A stretch of 64,000 bases of DNA. Origin: a virus. The DNA lies in IMG/VR virus record IMGVR_UViG_3300029267_002119, positions 1 through 64,000 of that record. The stretch is one strand, 5' to 3'. Positions 459 through 8,897 of this stretch are shown in pieces (positions within the stretch are counted from its first letter, which is position 1; every line of letters starts with the position of its first letter). The notes under the pieces were generated by a model. That model saw nothing but the letters and a program-made list of their open reading frames with translations, made no database searches and was not told where the DNA came from. A program made the position numbers and the translations under genes.

Positions 459-2231
459 CTACAATCCATTCCACGTCTTCATGAACGGGCGCTCCTCGGC
501 CGCGATCTTGTTGATCTCCGCGTTGAGGTTTTCGACGTCGCCGAACTCGTTCCAGTCCACGCGTAGGACGCGAGTGTAGCGAGACATCGCGTCCGCGAGC
601 ATCTCGTGCTTGTCGTGGATGCGGCGGAGGTAGTCGAGCGGAACGCCGGACTCCTCGGTGCGGGCGCGGCGCTTCATCCGGTCGAAGCAGGTCTGGGGGT
701 CGGTGCGCAGGTAGACGATCACGTCGGGGTAGCGGAGGAACCGCTTCATCGCCCCGAACGTGTCCTCGTAGATCCCCCACTCGGCCTCGGTCATGTTGCC
801 GTCCTCGCGGACGGTCATGCCGAAGCAGCCATCGGCGAAGATCGTGCGGTCCTGCACGACATCGACGCCGTTGTTCACCAGCTCGGCCGCCAGCGTGTGT
901 TGACGGAAGCGCGCCTGGAGCGCGTGCATCTGGAAGGTGAATCCCCAGCGCTTTGGATCGCCATAGTAGAGGCCGAGCAGCTCCTTGAACCTGCCCTTGA
1001 TGGGCTCGAACAAGACGTGGGTCGGACCATCGTAGCCGGTCCGCAGGCGGGCGAGCATGTTGGCGCACTCGGTGTTGTGCGTCACCTGGAAGTTGCCGAG
1101 CAGGAACCGGCCATCACCGTCGAGCGTGAAGCCCGCGTAGTCGCCACGGCCTAGGGGCTCGACCGTGAAGCCAAACCGCAGTGGGTTCTTCTTCTGCTTG
1201 CGAGGCCGGGGCTTCTTCCGCTCGACGCGCATGGGCAGAAACGTCATGTCGCCAGAGACGGACATCCGGTAGTAGGGACGGTCGTAGCCGGGCACGGTCT
1301 TGATCGAGCGCACGACGCGCAGCCCCAGAGAGCGCGCGACGAAGGCGATGTCGTCGGCGAGCTGCTCACCGCGCTGGACGATCTCGAAGGAGCCCTTGCA
1401 CAGGTAACCGTCGGTATCGAGAAGCCCGGCCAGCAGTCGAGACCTGACCTCGCGCGAACCGTACTTGCAGCGCGCGGGAATGCTGTAACCGTAGTCCTGC
1501 TGCTCCGGCGCCATCAGGTGTCGCAGCTTCTCCAGCAGCGGGTTGCCCTTCCCGTCGCACACGAGTCCGAACGTCGGACAGCGCTCGGGGTATTCGTAGC
1601 GACTCAGGCGACACCCCTCGGTCGGTGCGAAGTCGCGCAGGTAGTCGATCAGTTCCTCGTCCGGGAACGTCAGCTGGATGCCCTGGCTGAGATCCTTGCG
1701 ACCATCCCCCAGCCAGAGCCCGACGAAGTAAGGATCGACCTCGGGCTCGGTCACTGGCGGAAACTCGACCGGAACGGTGAACAGCTTTTGCCGCTCCCGC
1801 CACGTCTTGTCGCGCGTCAGGAACTCGTTGAGGGGAATGTCGATGACCTCATCCGTCAGCGTGTCCACAACGGTCAGCACGTGCACGTCGTTACAGATCC
1901 ATGACGGCGCACGCTTCGGCTTGATCTCGAACATGGGGCCGGTGCCGCGAGTGGTCGAGAGCACCTCGCGCGGCTGACTGTCCGGTCCCATGAGGCGCTG
2001 GCCGACCTCGATCCCACCGGCCTTGACGGTGTAACCGTCGTAGAGCAGCACCGGAGTATCCGGGTCGAGACACTTGCCAGTGCCGATGTTGGCCTCGATC
2101 CCGATGAAGATTCCCTGGCGCTCACGAAGGTGGGGAAGAGCCTGCATGATCGCGTTCGTGTCGATCTCCTGAATCGCCTGTACCTGGGCCTGCACCTCGG
2201 TCTCCTCTTGTTCGTTGGGTTGGCTGGACAT
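459..2231 (-). CDS. Deoxynucleoside kinase precursor with an intein in its P-loop
   Basis: 590-residue precursor. After removal of residues 54-386 the mature enzyme would be about 257 aa, normal for the dNK/dGK family that phosphorylates deoxynucleosides to dNMPs for DNA synthesis. The Walker A motif is rebuilt only by splicing: IEANIGTGK (residues 45-53) joins TECANML. Downstream, QDRTIFAD is the DRS-type catalytic stretch, and an Arg-rich segment (RMKRRARTEE) resembles the LID that contacts phosphates. The start ATG at 2231 lies 16 bases after a TAGAAC hexamer, with a weak GGAAC-type ribosome site. It sits between the methyltransferase gene and a small unknown gene in one leftward operon. 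The unspliced protein should be inactive because the phosphate-binding loop is interrupted. A thymidylate-kinase role is less likely but not excluded. Confidence 0.88.
   Translation of the reverse strand: MSSQPNEQEETEVQAQVQAIQEIDTNAIMQALPHLRERQGIFIGIEANIGTGKCLDPDTPVLLYDGYTVKAGGIEVGQRLMGPDSQPREVLSTTRGTGPMFEIKPKRAPSWICNDVHVLTVVDTLTDEVIDIPLNEFLTRDKTWRERQKLFTVPVEFPPVTEPEVDPYFVGLWLGDGRKDLSQGIQLTFPDEELIDYLRDFAPTEGCRLSRYEYPERCPTFGLVCDGKGNPLLEKLRHLMAPEQQDYGYSIPARCKYGSREVRSRLLAGLLDTDGYLCKGSFEIVQRGEQLADDIAFVARSLGLRVVRSIKTVPGYDRPYYRMSVSGDMTFLPMRVERKKPRPRKQKKNPLRFGFTVEPLGRGDYAGFTLDGDGRFLLGNFQVTHNTECANMLARLRTGYDGPTHVLFEPIKGRFKELLGLYYGDPKRWGFTFQMHALQARFRQHTLAAELVNNGVDVVQDRTIFADGCFGMTVREDGNMTEAEWGIYEDTFGAMKRFLRYPDVIVYLRTDPQTCFDRMKRRARTEESGVPLDYLRRIHDKHEMLADAMSRYTRVLRVDWNEFGDVENLNAEINKIAAEERPFMKTWNGL
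1074..2072 (-). other. LAGLIDADG intein inserted between Lys and Thr of the kinase Walker A motif
   Basis: 333 residues in frame within the kinase gene. The N-terminal residue is Cys in CLDPDTPVLL (block A). NDVHVLTV resembles block B. FVGLWLGDG (about residue 169) and LLAGLLDTDG (about residue 266) are the two LAGLIDADG motifs of a homing endonuclease. The C terminus is VTHN followed by Thr as the +1 extein nucleophile. All expected splicing residues (Cys1, block B His, terminal His-Asn, +1 Thr) and both acidic catalytic residues are present, so splicing and homing both look intact. P-loops are a classic insertion point for inteins because the site is conserved among potential recipient genes. 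Confidence 0.93.
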
Positions 2232-2274: not shown

Positions 2275-3993
2275 TCAGCGGTTGTCACCCCCTAGTAGCT
2301 CTTCCGCTGTGAAGCGCTTTAGGCACTTCATGCACGTCGTCTTCTTGCCGGTCTCCCTCATCCGCTCGACGGCCTTGCGGGAGATCAGCTTGATCTCGCC
2401 CTTCGCCTTGCAGCCGGGACAGAAGTAGGCGCCCGAGGTCAGCGCTGACGGCTCTCGCGCGTCCAGGCGGGCGAGCCTCGCTCGGGCGATCTGGGCGTAG
2501 TCCTCGTCTCGGTCGCAGGTCACGAACTGGTAGCCGAGCTTCTTCGCGGCCACGAGCGTTGTCCCGGTTCCGCAGAAGGGGTCGAGCACGACACCGCCGT
2601 CTTGTGTAACGAGCCGGACGAGATACTCCATCAGCGCGAGCGGCTTCTGGGTCGGATGGCTGACGACTTCGTCCTGGTGATCGTCATGCTCGTCGAAGCT
2701 GTCGCCCTCATGGTTGAAGACCAGCTGACACGCGCGGCAGTAGGACCAGCGCTCCCTGGCTGCGGCCTTCGGCGTGTAGAAGAAGCGGCTGGCGCCCCCC
2801 GCGTCTCCATAGCGCGTTCCGTTCGACTCGTCCGGCCGCCCGTCTCCTCGGAAGAGCGACCTGTTCGAGTCGGTACCGAGCCCGCCGCCACACGCGGAGC
2901 CAGCGCCGTGCATCCCACCCTCGATGCTCTGTTCGTCCAGCTCGGCGACCGGGCAGCCAGGGGCGCACTCGTACTCCGGGACCTCCTCCTTGCCGTCGGC
3001 ATCGGCGTATGTCTGGTCAACGCCGCGCTTCGTGCGCGCCTTCAGGTCAATGCGCTGCTTCGCGCCCTCCTCGGGCAGGTTGCGCTTCACGGCCGTTCCG
3101 GTGCGGACGCGTTTCGAGCCAATCAGCTGGCACTCGGGCAGATGGGCCACGATCACGTTCGAGGGCCAGCGCCCGGCCTTCGACTCGCACGCGATGTTCT
3201 TGAAGCCACCCTGGTGGCAGGGCGAGCCGCCCTTGCCCTTCGGGTAGCTCCAGCCGGGGTTCGGCCCGATGCGGCCCGAGTCGACGTTCAGTGCGCCAGT
3301 CCCGTGTTCGAGCACGTGCTCGGCGTAGGTTCCCTTGAACGGCTTGCGGGCCAGCACGATCGGCTCATGGCTGGGTTTTAGTGCCGTGCCCCAGCCCTTC
3401 CAGGCAGCGCCCTCTGGCGTGGCGGGCTCATCGCGGATGACACGAGGCGCGGCCTTGCCACGGTTGTTCCTCATGCTCATCCCATCGGACTGAGTGTGGG
3501 TACGTACCCGGCCTTCGCCCTCGCGCAGCTCGTCGTTGGCGAACTGGAGCGCGAGCGAGTCGGACTTCCCGGTCGAGACCAGGGCGTCGATCGCCTTCGA
3601 GATGTTGTGCGACTTCGGGAAGCCGCTGCCTGTGATCCAGTCGATCTGGTCGTGGACCTCGAAGCCCGCGAACCGGATCGCCATGACACCCCAGTCGTAG
3701 GTACGCGCTCCGAAGAAGCTCAGGAGCCAGCCGCCCGGCTTGAGGACCCGGTAGACTTCGCGCCAGACAGCTGGGCCAGGGACGAACGCGTCCCACTTCG
3801 AGTACATGAAGCCGGGGCCGGACGCCTCGTACTCGCGACCTTCGATCCAGGCGCGCATGACGTCGATCGGGTCAGGCTGGTGCTTGCCCAAGCCGTACGG
3901 AGCATCCGTGCAGCAAGCGTCGATGCACTCGTCGGGAACCTGCCGCAGATACTCCGCAGCTTCTCCAACTCCTACCGTGTTGAGGTAAGACAC
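2275..3993 (-). CDS. DNA methyltransferase, beta class (N4-cytosine or N6-adenine), with zinc ribbons
   Basis: 572 aa. Motif IV appears as DAPY (about residue 31) in place of the usual DPPY, and motif I as DPFCGTGTT (about residue 471), so the order IV then I is that of beta-class amino methyltransferases. The S-adenosylmethionine site FxGxG is intact. A long middle region of over 300 residues probably holds target recognition. It contains two short Cys clusters, ECAPGCP and YCRAC followed by a His-rich stretch. The C terminus carries a zinc-ribbon-like CPGC...CMKC. The start is GTG at 3993, with GGGGG five bases upstream; TTG at 3996 is an alternative. No restriction partner is seen nearby, so self-protection of phage DNA or gene regulation is more likely than a complete restriction-modification system. 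Confidence 0.85.
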   Translation of the reverse strand: MSYLNTVGVGEAAEYLRQVPDECIDACCTDAPYGLGKHQPDPIDVMRAWIEGREYEASGPGFMYSKWDAFVPGPAVWREVYRVLKPGGWLLSFFGARTYDWGVMAIRFAGFEVHDQIDWITGSGFPKSHNISKAIDALVSTGKSDSLALQFANDELREGEGRVRTHTQSDGMSMRNNRGKAAPRVIRDEPATPEGAAWKGWGTALKPSHEPIVLARKPFKGTYAEHVLEHGTGALNVDSGRIGPNPGWSYPKGKGGSPCHQGGFKNIACESKAGRWPSNVIVAHLPECQLIGSKRVRTGTAVKRNLPEEGAKQRIDLKARTKRGVDQTYADADGKEEVPEYECAPGCPVAELDEQSIEGGMHGAGSACGGGLGTDSNRSLFRGDGRPDESNGTRYGDAGGASRFFYTPKAAARERWSYCRACQLVFNHEGDSFDEHDDHQDEVVSHPTQKPLALMEYLVRLVTQDGGVVLDPFCGTGTTLVAAKKLGYQFVTCDRDEDYAQIARARLARLDAREPSALTSGAYFCPGCKAKGEIKLISRKAVERMRETGKKTTCMKCLKRFTAEELLGGDNR

Positions 3994-4010
3994 CAACGCC
4001 CCCGACAGGT

Positions 4011-5782: not shown

Positions 5783-5967
5783 GTGCTCCTGCTCTCTTCC
5801 TCCAGCTCCCTGAAGACCCTCCTAAACGCCTCTGCGAACGCGGGAACCTCCTTCTGGACTGTGGCCGTGTCGGCGATCCCGGCTCCCCACAACACCAGGA
5901 GGCGTTGTTTCTCGGGCAGATGCTTGAAGACGCGCTCCATCGGTCCCACGAGCGTCCACTGCCTCAC
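5767..5967 (-). CDS. Hypothetical protein, 66 aa
   Basis: The start is chosen as GTG at 5967 because it overlaps the upstream TGA as GTGA and has AGAGG five bases before it. A longer start at 5982 would lie inside the phosphatase gene. The small, mostly helical protein contains LVLWGAGIADTA and a charged C terminus. No family recognised. Confidence 0.55.
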   Translation of the reverse strand: MRQWTLVGPMERVFKHLPEKQRLLVLWGAGIADTATVQKEVPAFAEAFRRVFRELEEESRSTWTKS

Positions 5968-6791
5968 GAGTACCTCTCCCACAGCTCAAGCTGCCGTGAC
6001 GCCCGGCCGCGCTTCGCTCGTCGCTCCCGCCGGATTTGCCGGGCGAGCGCATCGTGGAACCGCAGCGGAACGAAGGTCGTGTCCGAGTCGCGCGCCTGGT
6101 CGCCGTAGCAGACCGTGATCGGCTCCAGCCGCTCGTCGTCCTTCTCGTTGCTCACGATGACCGCATGGACTCGACGAAAGCCTTCGCCATCGATCCCGAT
6201 CGCGTGCTCGTACTGGGTCACCTCTCGGTGGCTCTCGTGGCCGAACACGATCGTGCCCCAGCGCCCGTCGTAGATCTCGGCCCAGAACACGTCACTCATC
6301 CTGGTGCCGGACAGCTCGTAGTAGTGGTCGTCGAGGTAGCGCGTGCGGAGCATGTAGTCACCGGCGATCTCGGGCGTCGCCATGTGCGGCGTGACGCCGC
6401 CGTGGACGCAGAACAGGTCCAGCTCGTGGACTACGATGTAGCGCGGGAGCGCCTCCATCCAGTCAAGCTCCTCGCGGGTGAGCTGGCGGTAGAGCTTCTT
6501 GTCTTCGGGCGCCGGGATCCGATCGCGGCCCGGCTTCGGGATACGGCGGCGGGTTCGCACGTAGGCGTCCTCGTGGTTGCCGCTGATGACCTCCAGTGAC
6601 CGCAGCGCGCCGGACCTGGCGCGGAACTGCCAGGTCATCGCGATGCGCAGGCACGCCTTGGACGCGGGGCCTCGATCAACCAGGTCGCCCAGGAGGATGA
6701 TGCGGTCGACACCGCGCTCCTCCAGCTCACCAATCATCTCAGCCAGCTCGGTCGCGTGTCCGTGTACGTCTCCTATGATCCCGACCCTCAC
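5964..6791 (-). CDS. PPP-family metallophosphoesterase (bis-nucleosyl tetraphosphatase or Ser/Thr phosphatase-like)
   Basis: 275 aa. The full dimetal signature is present in order: GDVHGH (7-12), GDLVDRG (35-41), GNHED (71-75), HGG (130-132) and a later FGHE near residue 184. This arrangement is that of PPP phosphatases and of PrpE/ApaH-like enzymes that cleave Ap4A or dephosphorylate proteins, and is known from phages such as lambda (Ninth phosphatase). The substrate cannot be told from sequence. GTG at 6791 overlaps the stop of the upstream ADP-ribosylglycohydrolase (GTGA), so the two are translated together. Both act on nucleotide-derived signals, which fits a role in countering host stress or defence, but this is inference. 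Confidence 0.85.
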   Translation of the reverse strand: MRVGIIGDVHGHATELAEMIGELEERGVDRIILLGDLVDRGPASKACLRIAMTWQFRARSGALRSLEVISGNHEDAYVRTRRRIPKPGRDRIPAPEDKKLYRQLTREELDWMEALPRYIVVHELDLFCVHGGVTPHMATPEIAGDYMLRTRYLDDHYYELSGTRMSDVFWAEIYDGRWGTIVFGHESHREVTQYEHAIGIDGEGFRRVHAVIVSNEKDDERLEPITVCYGDQARDSDTTFVPLRFHDALARQIRRERRAKRGRASRQLELWERYS

Positions 6792-7852
6792 GCTGCCTCC
6801 ACGAGCCGCTCGGCCAGGTTGGCGAGGTAGGAGCTGTCCTCGATTCGCTCGATCCAGTCGGCGGGCACGCCCTTCTGGCCGCCGAGGCCCCAGTAGGCTC
6901 CCGCGAATGCGCCGGAAATGCAGCCGATCGAGTCCGAGTCGCCGACCGTGTTGGCGCCGTAGCGCACGGTCTCGACGTATCCCTCGCCACGAGCGTGGGC
7001 GAGCAGGAAGCAGTAGAGCGAACTGGCCAGCGCCTCGTCACCGTGCCAGCTCTCGCCGAGCGCGAGGTCGTGTGCCCCATAGTTGACCATCACACGCTCG
7101 GGGGTGATCTCACCGGCGAGCGTCGCCTTGAGAGCGCGCGGCACGCGATCGAGGAGGCTGAGGAGCTTCGGGTCGTACTCGCCCAGCTCCCAGCCGCACG
7201 TCTCCATCAGGTCGGGGAGCAAGAACTCGGCGGTAATGTCGCCGCCGGTCACCTTCCCCCGGGCGAGCATATGAACCGCGAGCGCCCCCAGCTGCGCGGC
7301 CTGCCACGCTGACGGGTGGCCGTGCGTGCAGATCGCCTGGGCCTTCGCGATCTCCATGATCGTCTCGGGCTCATCGTAGACCAGGCCGACCGGCGCGGTT
7401 CGCATCACTCCGCCGCAGCCCTTCGAGTGCTTGATGCCGCTCTCGAGCCAGTGGGCGCCGTTCTCTAGGTTCCGGCACCCGCCCATGCACGTGTTCCCGG
7501 GCGCGCGGCCCGACTGGTCGGATCGCAGCCACCTGATGAGGTGCTTGACCACGACTGGCATCACGAAGTGGGGGTCGGCCATGTCGGCCGTGCAGACCGG
7601 ATGACCGAGCAGCTCGGCTGCCGCGCGCTCATGCTTGATGCTGGCCGCCGCGTCAAGGAGCCCCTCGGCGATGGCGATTGTCATGCACGTGTCGTCCGTG
7701 AAGCGGCCGTTCGTCTGAACCAGGTTGCGGATCCCTGCCTGGCCAAACCGGCGGCGGATCCCCTCCATCCCCATGAACTCGGTCGGCGCGCCGAGCGCGT
7801 CGCCGCACGCGAGTCCGTAGATCACTGCCTTGCTTCGATCGGGTGTCATCAT
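6788..7852 (-). CDS. ADP-ribosylglycohydrolase family protein (DraG/ARH-like)
   Basis: 354 aa. Three hallmark motifs bind the two Mg ions and ADP-ribose: GLACGDALGAPTEF near residues 13-26, TDDT at 52-55 and GDSDSIG near 304-310 followed by GAFAGAYWG. The family removes ADP-ribose from Arg or other targets, or acts on related adducts. In a phage it could reverse host ADP-ribosylation or recycle NAD products. The start is the first of two adjacent ATGs (7852), placed six bases after GGAGG. The frame continues upstream to 8083, but that part would overlap the divergent gene and control region and is rejected. First gene of the leftward operon, driven by the motif at 7899-7913. Confidence 0.87.
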   Translation of the reverse strand: MMTPDRSKAVIYGLACGDALGAPTEFMGMEGIRRRFGQAGIRNLVQTNGRFTDDTCMTIAIAEGLLDAAASIKHERAAAELLGHPVCTADMADPHFVMPVVVKHLIRWLRSDQSGRAPGNTCMGGCRNLENGAHWLESGIKHSKGCGGVMRTAPVGLVYDEPETIMEIAKAQAICTHGHPSAWQAAQLGALAVHMLARGKVTGGDITAEFLLPDLMETCGWELGEYDPKLLSLLDRVPRALKATLAGEITPERVMVNYGAHDLALGESWHGDEALASSLYCFLLAHARGEGYVETVRYGANTVGDSDSIGCISGAFAGAYWGLGGQKGVPADWIERIEDSSYLANLAERLVEAA

Positions 7853-7898
7853 CTTCAACCTCCATCCCTCCCAACAACCGCAGGTCCCTTTCTCACAA

Positions 7899-7913
7899 GG
7901 TTCTACCCAGGGG
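7899..7913 (-). promoter_or_regulatory. Candidate leftward promoter or operator (CCCCTGGGTAGAACC)
   Basis: On the minus strand this reads CCCCTGGGTAGAACC. Its core CCTGGGTAGAACC matches the plus-strand copy at 7935-7947 at 12 of 13 positions. TAGAAC could be a -10 element for the operon starting at 7852, 47 bases downstream. No good TTGACA-type -35 lies at the usual distance, so an extended -10 or a phage-encoded factor is possible. Confidence 0.45.
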
Positions 7914-7934
7914 CGGCCCGATGCTGTCGGAGGG

Positions 7935-7947
7935 CCTGGGTATAACC
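7935..7947 (+). promoter_or_regulatory. Candidate rightward promoter or operator (CCTGGGTATAACC)
   Basis: Mirror copy of the element at 7899-7911, pointing toward the plus-strand operon that starts at 8025. TATAAC would be the -10 hexamer. The back-to-back arrangement in the only divergent gap of the window supports a promoter pair. Confidence 0.45.
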
Positions 7948-8024
7948 CCTGGTGGCGCAGCAACATCGGATTCTTCCGTGAGAACTGAGCGCGGTGTTGT
8001 TGGGAGGAGTGAAGGAGGAGTTCA

Positions 8025-8897
8025 GTGGGACTCAAGAAGGTCAGCAAGAAGACGCTCGCAAAGAAGGATCTCTCGGACGGCATTCAGGTGCCCTGGCACC
8101 TGTGCCTCGACTACCTGCTCGCTGGGCGGGCCGTCGTGACGCTCGTTGACGTCGCGACCACCAAGCGGCACACCTACTTCGTTTCTCGCGCCACGGACGA
8201 CGAGAAGCAGCCGGACGGCACCGTCAAGGAGGTCGAGAAGGACCGCTGGTTCGTCCACGTGTTGCACGGCTCGGGCGACGGGCGGCGCTACTCCTACATC
8301 GGCGTGATCGACGACGTGCACGGCGTCCGCCGGTTCCGCACCACGAAGGGCACCAAGAAGGCCGCCGCGACTGCCGAGAACATCAACCTGATCGGCGATA
8401 CGACCAAGTGGCTCGTGGATGGTGTCGAAGCCTCCCACAAGATCAAGTTCTGGCATCGGGGCTTCTGCGCGCGCTGCTGCGCGGCCCTGACCGTTCCCAG
8501 CTCGATCGCGACCGGCTTCGGCCCCGACTGCGCGAAGATGATGGGGATCGCGATGAAGAAGGTCTCGCCCAGCGTGGTCGAGAAGCTCGCCGCGCTCTCG
8601 CCCGTCGAGGGCGAGCCCGCGCCCGCCAAGAAGGAGACGGTCAAGGAGCCCGAGGGGCTCGACGTGGCCGGAGCCGTAGAGAAGGTGCTCACGAAGCAGT
8701 TCGAGGCTGCCGCGCCCGCCGAGGAGCCCGAGGAAGACCCGACCGCTGTCCTGCTCGCGACCGCCGTGAAGCTCTCCAAGATGACGGCCGCTGAGGTCTA
8801 CGAGTGGCTGAAGGCGCGCGTCAAGGTCGAGAACGGCGAGATCGCCGAGCTGCTCACGCTCGACGACCTGCGCACGCCCAAGAAGGACACGGCGTGA
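8025..8897 (+). CDS. DUF6011-like zinc-binding protein
   Basis: 290 aa, starting at GTG 8025 after AGGAGGAG. The middle segment (FWHRGFCARCCAAL, TVPSSIATGFGPDC) matches the pattern of DUF6011: two or three cysteines, LT-P-S-I-G-GP-C. This pattern is thought to form a small treble-clef-like zinc site and is common in actinophage and other phage proteins. The N-terminal 120 residues may bind nucleic acid (basic, beta-rich). The C-terminal 100 residues are Ala/Glu/Pro-rich and probably flexible, ending in a helical segment. First gene of the plus-strand operon. Function unknown. Confidence 0.65.
   Translation: MGLKKVSKKTLAKKDLSDGIQVPWHLCLDYLLAGRAVVTLVDVATTKRHTYFVSRATDDEKQPDGTVKEVEKDRWFVHVLHGSGDGRRYSYIGVIDDVHGVRRFRTTKGTKKAAATAENINLIGDTTKWLVDGVEASHKIKFWHRGFCARCCAALTVPSSIATGFGPDCAKMMGIAMKKVSPSVVEKLAALSPVEGEPAPAKKETVKEPEGLDVAGAVEKVLTKQFEAAAPAEEPEEDPTAVLLATAVKLSKMTAAEVYEWLKARVKVENGEIAELLTLDDLRTPKKDTA

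Follow-up and report, generated by a model that had tools for sequence, protein, structure and literature searches.

A predicted class 1 homing intein that splits the Walker A loop of a jumbo-phage deoxynucleoside kinase

Introduction

Does a 333-residue insertion that splits the Walker A loop of a phage deoxynucleoside kinase (dNK) act as a functional intein, and why would such an element lie in a P-loop? The insertion is encoded near the beginning of the window, the 64,000-nucleotide stretch analyzed here, which is the start of a 102,389-bp IMG/VR record (IMGVR_UViG_3300029267_002119). Judged from sequence comparison and structure prediction, the insertion, which lies in the P-loop of a jumbo-phage dNK, is highly likely to be a class 1 homing intein that is functional. 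With this locus, the intein hosts come to include a nucleotide-salvage enzyme of a phage, and the family to which the intein belongs makes it testable whether inteins reside in P-loops through function, through conservation or because their endonuclease reads P-loop DNA.

Anatomy of the intein and its insertion site

The features of the locus are collected in Table 1. Intein residues 1-333 correspond to residues 54-386 of the precursor, beginning with CLDPDT and ending with FQVTHN, which is followed directly by T. A Pfam search with these residues alone, a check proposed in the first-pass annotation, returns Hom_end_hint (4.8e-13), Hom_end (1.5e-6) and LAGLIDADG_3 (8.9e-6), and a PDB sequence search returns PI-SceI, at 4.6e-14 when the query is the single sequence and at 1.7e-44 when it is the family profile. 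The AlphaFold model of the intein has a mean predicted local distance difference test (pLDDT) score of 95.0; in a Foldseek search with this model, PI-SceI is on top (TMq approximately 0.8), followed by archaeal VMA inteins, and Prp8 inteins are also matched. The Pfam domains, the PI-SceI matches and the predicted fold confirm what the annotation had claimed, namely an intact LAGLIDADG intein in the Walker A loop of a dNK.

Table 1. Coordinates of the precursor gene and of the intein within the window.
Feature	Position	Strand	Evidence
Open reading frame of the 590-aa precursor, including the stop codon	459-2231	-	translation; read 2231->459
N-extein of the dNK, 53 aa, last residues GIEANIGTGK (Walker A up to Lys)	2073..2231	-	translation; alignment with the uninterrupted L016 and L017
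Class 1 intein (333 aa), PI-SceI-like, with a LAGLIDADG endonuclease nested in the Hint splicing domain	1074..2072	-	Pfam, PDB search, AlphaFold/Foldseek, family alignments
Cys1, N-terminal splice nucleophile (block A)	2070..2072	-	invariant in the 63-row alignment and in 83/83 members tallied
Block B, N61-D-V-H64 (context W-I-C-N-D-V-H)	1881..1892	-	N61 and H64 unchanged across the 63-row alignment
LAGLIDADG motif 1, YFVGLWLGDG; Asp123 corresponds to PI-SceI residue 218	1701..1730	-	alignment to 1dfa
LAGLIDADG motif 2, LLAGLLDTDG; Asp221 corresponds to PI-SceI residue 326	1407..1436	-	alignment to 1dfa
Block G, His332-Asn333	1074..1079	-	invariant in the 63-row alignment; HN end in 83/83 members
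Thr+1, C-extein nucleophile and Walker A Thr	1071..1073	-	translation; +1 is T in 57/83 and S in 26/83 members
C-extein of the dNK, 204 aa	462..1073	-	PF01712 (3e-35); phmmer PDB matches
Stop codon of the precursor	459-461	-	

In an alignment of 63 rows, the others of which are 38-93% identical to the dNK intein, there is no variation at Cys1, N61, H64, D219, H332 or N333 and almost none at D123 and D221. The splicing residues listed in the annotation (Cys1, the block B His, the terminal His-Asn and Thr+1) and both LAGLIDADG motifs are present as described, but the block B motif is NDVH and not TxxH. N61 and H64 match Asn76 and His79, the block B arrangement of PI-SceI, and residues 218 and 326 of PI-SceI are its catalytic aspartates. 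Class 3 inteins are defined by the lack of a nucleophile at position 1 and by a WCT triplet instead (PMC5050341); this class is ruled out by the presence of Cys1.

The kinases of related phages include intein-free homologues, as the annotation had suggested seeking, and five were found. Two of these read GIEANIGAGK|TEACNM (L016) and GVEANIGAGK|TELANM (L017), with a C-extein identity of 76-77%, and three others (L089, L090 and L091; 59-61% identical) are also uninterrupted. Because these kinases lack an insert at this position, both the insertion codon and the length of the product can be established. The alignments place the intein between the Lys and the Thr of Walker A (GTGK|T), exact to the codon, and intein removal leaves 53 + 204 = 257 residues; the position and the approximate product length given in the annotation are both borne out. 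The same five homologues rule out that the inserted region is a normal kinase domain, and the split Walker A loop supports the earlier expectation that the precursor has no kinase activity before splicing. The K/T position in the P-loop is a "classic" site that has been described for TerL1-a, a mycobacteriophage terminase intein (PMC5050341), which is likened to the present element by its published description alone and differs in its host.

The precursor matches PF01712 (dNK) at 3e-35, with 122 bits against a Pfam cut-off of 27, and its kinase part is related by phmmer to PDB 8puu, fly dNK and human dCK. The kinase P-loop GxxxxGK[ST] is read across the intein junction as GIEANIGTGK|T, the LID motif RxRxEE is present in the C-extein as RARTEE, aligned with fly dNK, and the empty homologue L017 aligns with 8puu through the P-loop. 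The AlphaFold model of the whole precursor, in which the kinase part is poorly modelled (pLDDT 79 overall), was used solely for an end-to-end database match.

PI-SceI, the VMA1 intein of yeast (VDE), is the best PDB match by both sequence and structure and the nearest solved structure to the clade. The two inteins share the class 1 type, Cys1, an Asn-xx-His block B, a His-Asn end and two LAGLIDADG motifs in which both aspartates are aligned. However, PI-SceI has 454 residues, whereas the dNK intein has 333, and the stretch that separates its splicing and endonuclease parts is much shorter; the host of PI-SceI is the vacuolar ATPase rather than a kinase P-loop, and its +1 residue is Cys rather than Thr. 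The HO endonuclease of yeast is most similar to PI-SceI/VMA1 (PMC7282813). Among named phages, the helicase P-loop inteins of Klebsiella phage JD001, Salmonella phage FSL SP-038 and Escherichia phage Bas95 are 36-40% identical to the dNK intein over all 333 residues, in helicase hosts instead of a kinase.

A giant-virus precedent for the kinase as an intein host

The annotation suggested that inteins may be new to this host gene, which is not supported. The protein A0A481ZAD2 ("Deoxynucleoside kinase", 613 aa) of Pithovirus LCPAC304 ranks fourth among the viral structure matches to the intein alone (UniProt/BFVD) and first for the whole-precursor model (E 5.9e-44, 30% identity over 618 columns, the two proteins being 590 and 613 residues long). 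On the strength of this end-to-end structure match, A0A481ZAD2 is predicted to be a dNK that bears an intein, and because the alignment includes the intein, a dNK as intein host has already been deposited. The two precursors are alike in host protein name and intein fold, whereas LCPAC304 is a giant virus of eukaryotes and its intein is 32% identical. The word "intein" is absent from the main text of the LCPAC304 genome paper of 2019 (PMC6401483). The present element is a well-formed member of a known intein type, in a host family with one unremarked giant-virus precedent.

No further dNK intein was found in phage records, IMG/VR or 84,980 prokaryote genomes within the patterns used, which covered the dNK loops E[GA]N[IV]GxGK, EG[PTS]IGxGK and GxIGxGK; this absence is not proof, because the patterns cover three loop forms only. 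In viral_contigs, the degenerate-DNA search for dNK P-loops followed by Cys returned the two dNK inteins already known and no others, and the remaining matches were chance, or inteins or frames in other genes. The 20 matches in the prokaryote genomes were judged to be chance and had no intein-like frame.

Additionally, the intein fold is apparently present in at least four genes of Pithovirus LCPAC304, encoding a RecD helicase, the dNK, an AAA ATPase and an A18-like helicase (BFVD accessions A0A481ZAS3, A0A481ZAD2, A0A481Z965 and A0A481ZA80). A phosphoenolpyruvate carboxykinase of Klosneuvirus was also matched in the structure search.

Splicing and homing

The intein is also present in a sister allele of the gene, from a related phage (L003), with 93% intein identity. 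Between the two alleles, the ratio of nonsynonymous to synonymous substitution rates (dN/dS) is 0.11 for the kinase C-extein, 0.07 for the whole intein and 0.12 for its endonuclease part, and the N-terminal and C-terminal splicing parts have values of 0.04 and 0.01. Both the kinase and the intein are under purifying selection in the intein-bearing alleles. A kinase that is permanently split in its P-loop should drift, yet this one is conserved, and it is therefore very likely, as far as sequences can tell, that splicing works in vivo.

In the proposed mechanism, the 590-aa precursor would have no usable Walker A loop. Following established intein chemistry, an N-S acyl shift at Cys1 would be followed by transesterification to Thr+1, and cyclisation of Asn333 would precede a final acyl shift to the peptide bond, with Cys1, NxxH64, His332-Asn333 and Thr+1 as the acting residues. 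The products would be a kinase of 257 residues, in which GTGKT is rejoined, and the LAGLIDADG endonuclease of 333 residues in free form. The endonuclease probably cleaves the site where co-infecting phages have it without an intein, with repair copying the intein in, and rare mis-homing may occur into other GxGK[T/S] sites.

We infer actual splicing and cutting from the anatomy, the junctions, the empty sites, the residue conservation, the predicted fold and the selection, and three points weigh against a fully working homing intein. The selection test consists of one allele pair, in which 22 of the differences between the inteins are nonsynonymous and 80 are synonymous. Where many inteins have a Thr in block B, this one has Asn, as does PI-SceI. 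Additionally, LAGLIDADG motifs alone are insufficient for inferring endonuclease activity. The intein may be competent in splicing with an inactive endonuclease, in which case it would be resident and vertically inherited rather than mobile. Both intein-bearing alleles come from phages that are closely related by their intein identity, recent movement into the kinase gene is not evident, and the endonuclease part has the highest dN/dS within the intein (0.117; the splicing parts have 0.01-0.04). However, neither LAGLIDADG aspartate has been lost, a dN/dS of 0.117 remains well under 1, and the empty sites are present in relatives as close as 76-77%; the loss of mobility appears unlikely.

An intein retained as a switch, in which conditional (redox or metal) splicing would time the kinase activity during infection, is considered improbable. 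Cys60 of block B does not vary among the first 10 aligned relatives, and conditional splicing of other inteins, such as mycobacterial DnaB, is documented (PMC6195587), which speaks for a switch; however, no sign of a benefit was found, related phages live without the intein, and the relatives of the intein occupy functionally unrelated hosts, which fits selfish targeting better than regulation. That the insertion is degenerate or dead in splicing, leaving the kinase inactive, is hardly credible, given that all splicing residues are present and that the kinase of the intein-bearing alleles is under purifying selection. The functional homing intein favored here comes with a natural intein/empty allele pair, which is clean for tests of splicing and homing.

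Hosts and target sites of the intein family

Relatives of the dNK intein are encoded by 365 IMG/VR stretches (alignment query); 80 of these stretches were fetched, and 83 members were read, including five from named phages. The insertion falls at GK|T or GK|S in 77 members, at AK|T in one (GLPGTAK|T) and at TG|SGKT in five. A sub-lineage (L029 and L049-L052) is inserted three codons earlier, at PTG|SGKT.

By similarity, the hosts fall into 16 groups, some of which are single members or unclassified, that comprise SF2 helicases, DnaB-like, UvrD-like, DinG-like, AAA+ and primase-like proteins, the dNK and others. On the tree, the host label switches at least 23 times for 16 labels, and the DnaB-like hosts are scattered (six rows with six changes, at least three of which are forced by well-supported branches). 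These many switches indicate that the clade has moved between unrelated genes. The correlation between flank and intein across hosts is weak (rho approximately 0.17, 0 of 300 shuffles) and may partly reflect genome composition. A quick tree groups the dNK intein with SF2-helicase inteins (SH-like approximate likelihood ratio test, SH-aLRT, 91), and a careful tree gives no resolved placement for it (18/92), which is why no donor is claimed.

The same phage carries a second intein outside the window (G000:82432-83469, minus strand), which is 41-42% identical to the dNK intein (tblastn); an identity of approximately 41% rules out that the latter is a close copy of it. Its host is a prohead core protease (Peptidase_S77, 4e-9; PHROG head maturation protease, 1e-23), as read on L033, where a related record has the same gene; the copy of the 275-kb record is in L034, and L133 and L135 are also equivalents. 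The insertion site is AVDHPGDGK|SRIRE, and an intein-free protease (L137) reads DHPGDGK|SRVREAG and aligns with T4 gp21 (PDB 5jbl, 2e-12) straight through the site. The prohead protease is not a P-loop NTPase, and its GDGKS is a mere Walker A look-alike. In L060 (3001-4002), the intein interrupts an SF2 helicase in its C-terminal half, at VACGGK|SVIAALQRIGR in the motif VI region, and the genuine Walker A (GAGKT), upstream of the intein, is intact; the homologue L044 (CAGGKAKIRLLQRVGR) is uninterrupted at that position. Because neither the protease site nor the L060 site is a P-loop, the two cases suggest that the element is guided by the DNA sequence rather than by the fold of the protein, and the same-clade insertion in a capsid protease at the P-loop-like GDGK|S argues for an endonuclease that reads P-loop DNA.

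The strongly conserved bases among 67 sites are in the Gly codons (-12,-11; -6,-5), the AA pair in the Lys codon (-3,-2) and A-C at +1,+2. A conserved P-loop would give the same bases, and the two explanations can therefore be told apart by the non-P-loop hosts only. The nearest four inteins to the dNK intein all have helicase hosts, in which the site continues with ACCGA, as in the kinase. ACCGA is found in 5 of 65 other sites, and the chance of four of four is approximately 7e-6. This is a post hoc count that includes two close relatives of each other (L004 and L007), and the dNK intein is not firmly placed in the tree (18/92).

There is about an even chance that a large viral PI-SceI-like clade, with the dNK intein among its members, carries an endonuclease that recognizes DNA coding for Gly-x-Gly-Lys-(Thr/Ser) in any fold, and hence jumps from gene to gene. 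Its hosts would then be dNK, SF1/SF2 helicases, DnaB, AAA+, DinG and primase, in addition to chance look-alikes (the S77 protease and the helicase motif VI region). If targeting is indeed fold-blind, the textbook preference for P-loops would stem, at least partly, from the DNA target of a single lineage and not from function.

The helicases L004 and L012 carry, besides the P-loop intein, a second insertion in the C-extein at the Walker B/DEAD-type motif. This insertion has intein-like ends (C...HN|C), which read VDEC|...HNCHH in L004 and are similar at VDEC in L012.

Source phage and neighboring genes

Tail-fibre and tape-measure proteins are encoded within the window. A 275,101-bp record contains the identical intein (DNA checked) together with a second related intein; the two inteins are equally spaced in both records, with 82,395 bp between their outer coordinates, and the kinase gene overlaps both ends of the 275,101-bp record. 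From these records we infer a jumbo tailed phage of approximately 275 kb as the source.

Directly upstream of the kinase, a DNA methyltransferase of 573 aa is encoded at window positions 2275-3996 (minus strand). A long stretch (approximately residues 145-405) separates its two conserved halves, and inspection by eye revealed no intein motifs in the 573 residues. Also near the kinase, at window positions 6788-8083 and 5964-6791 (minus strand), are an ADP-ribosylglycohydrolase-like gene (PHROG 6572, 3e-31) and a NinI-like phosphatase gene (PHROG 246, 3e-19).
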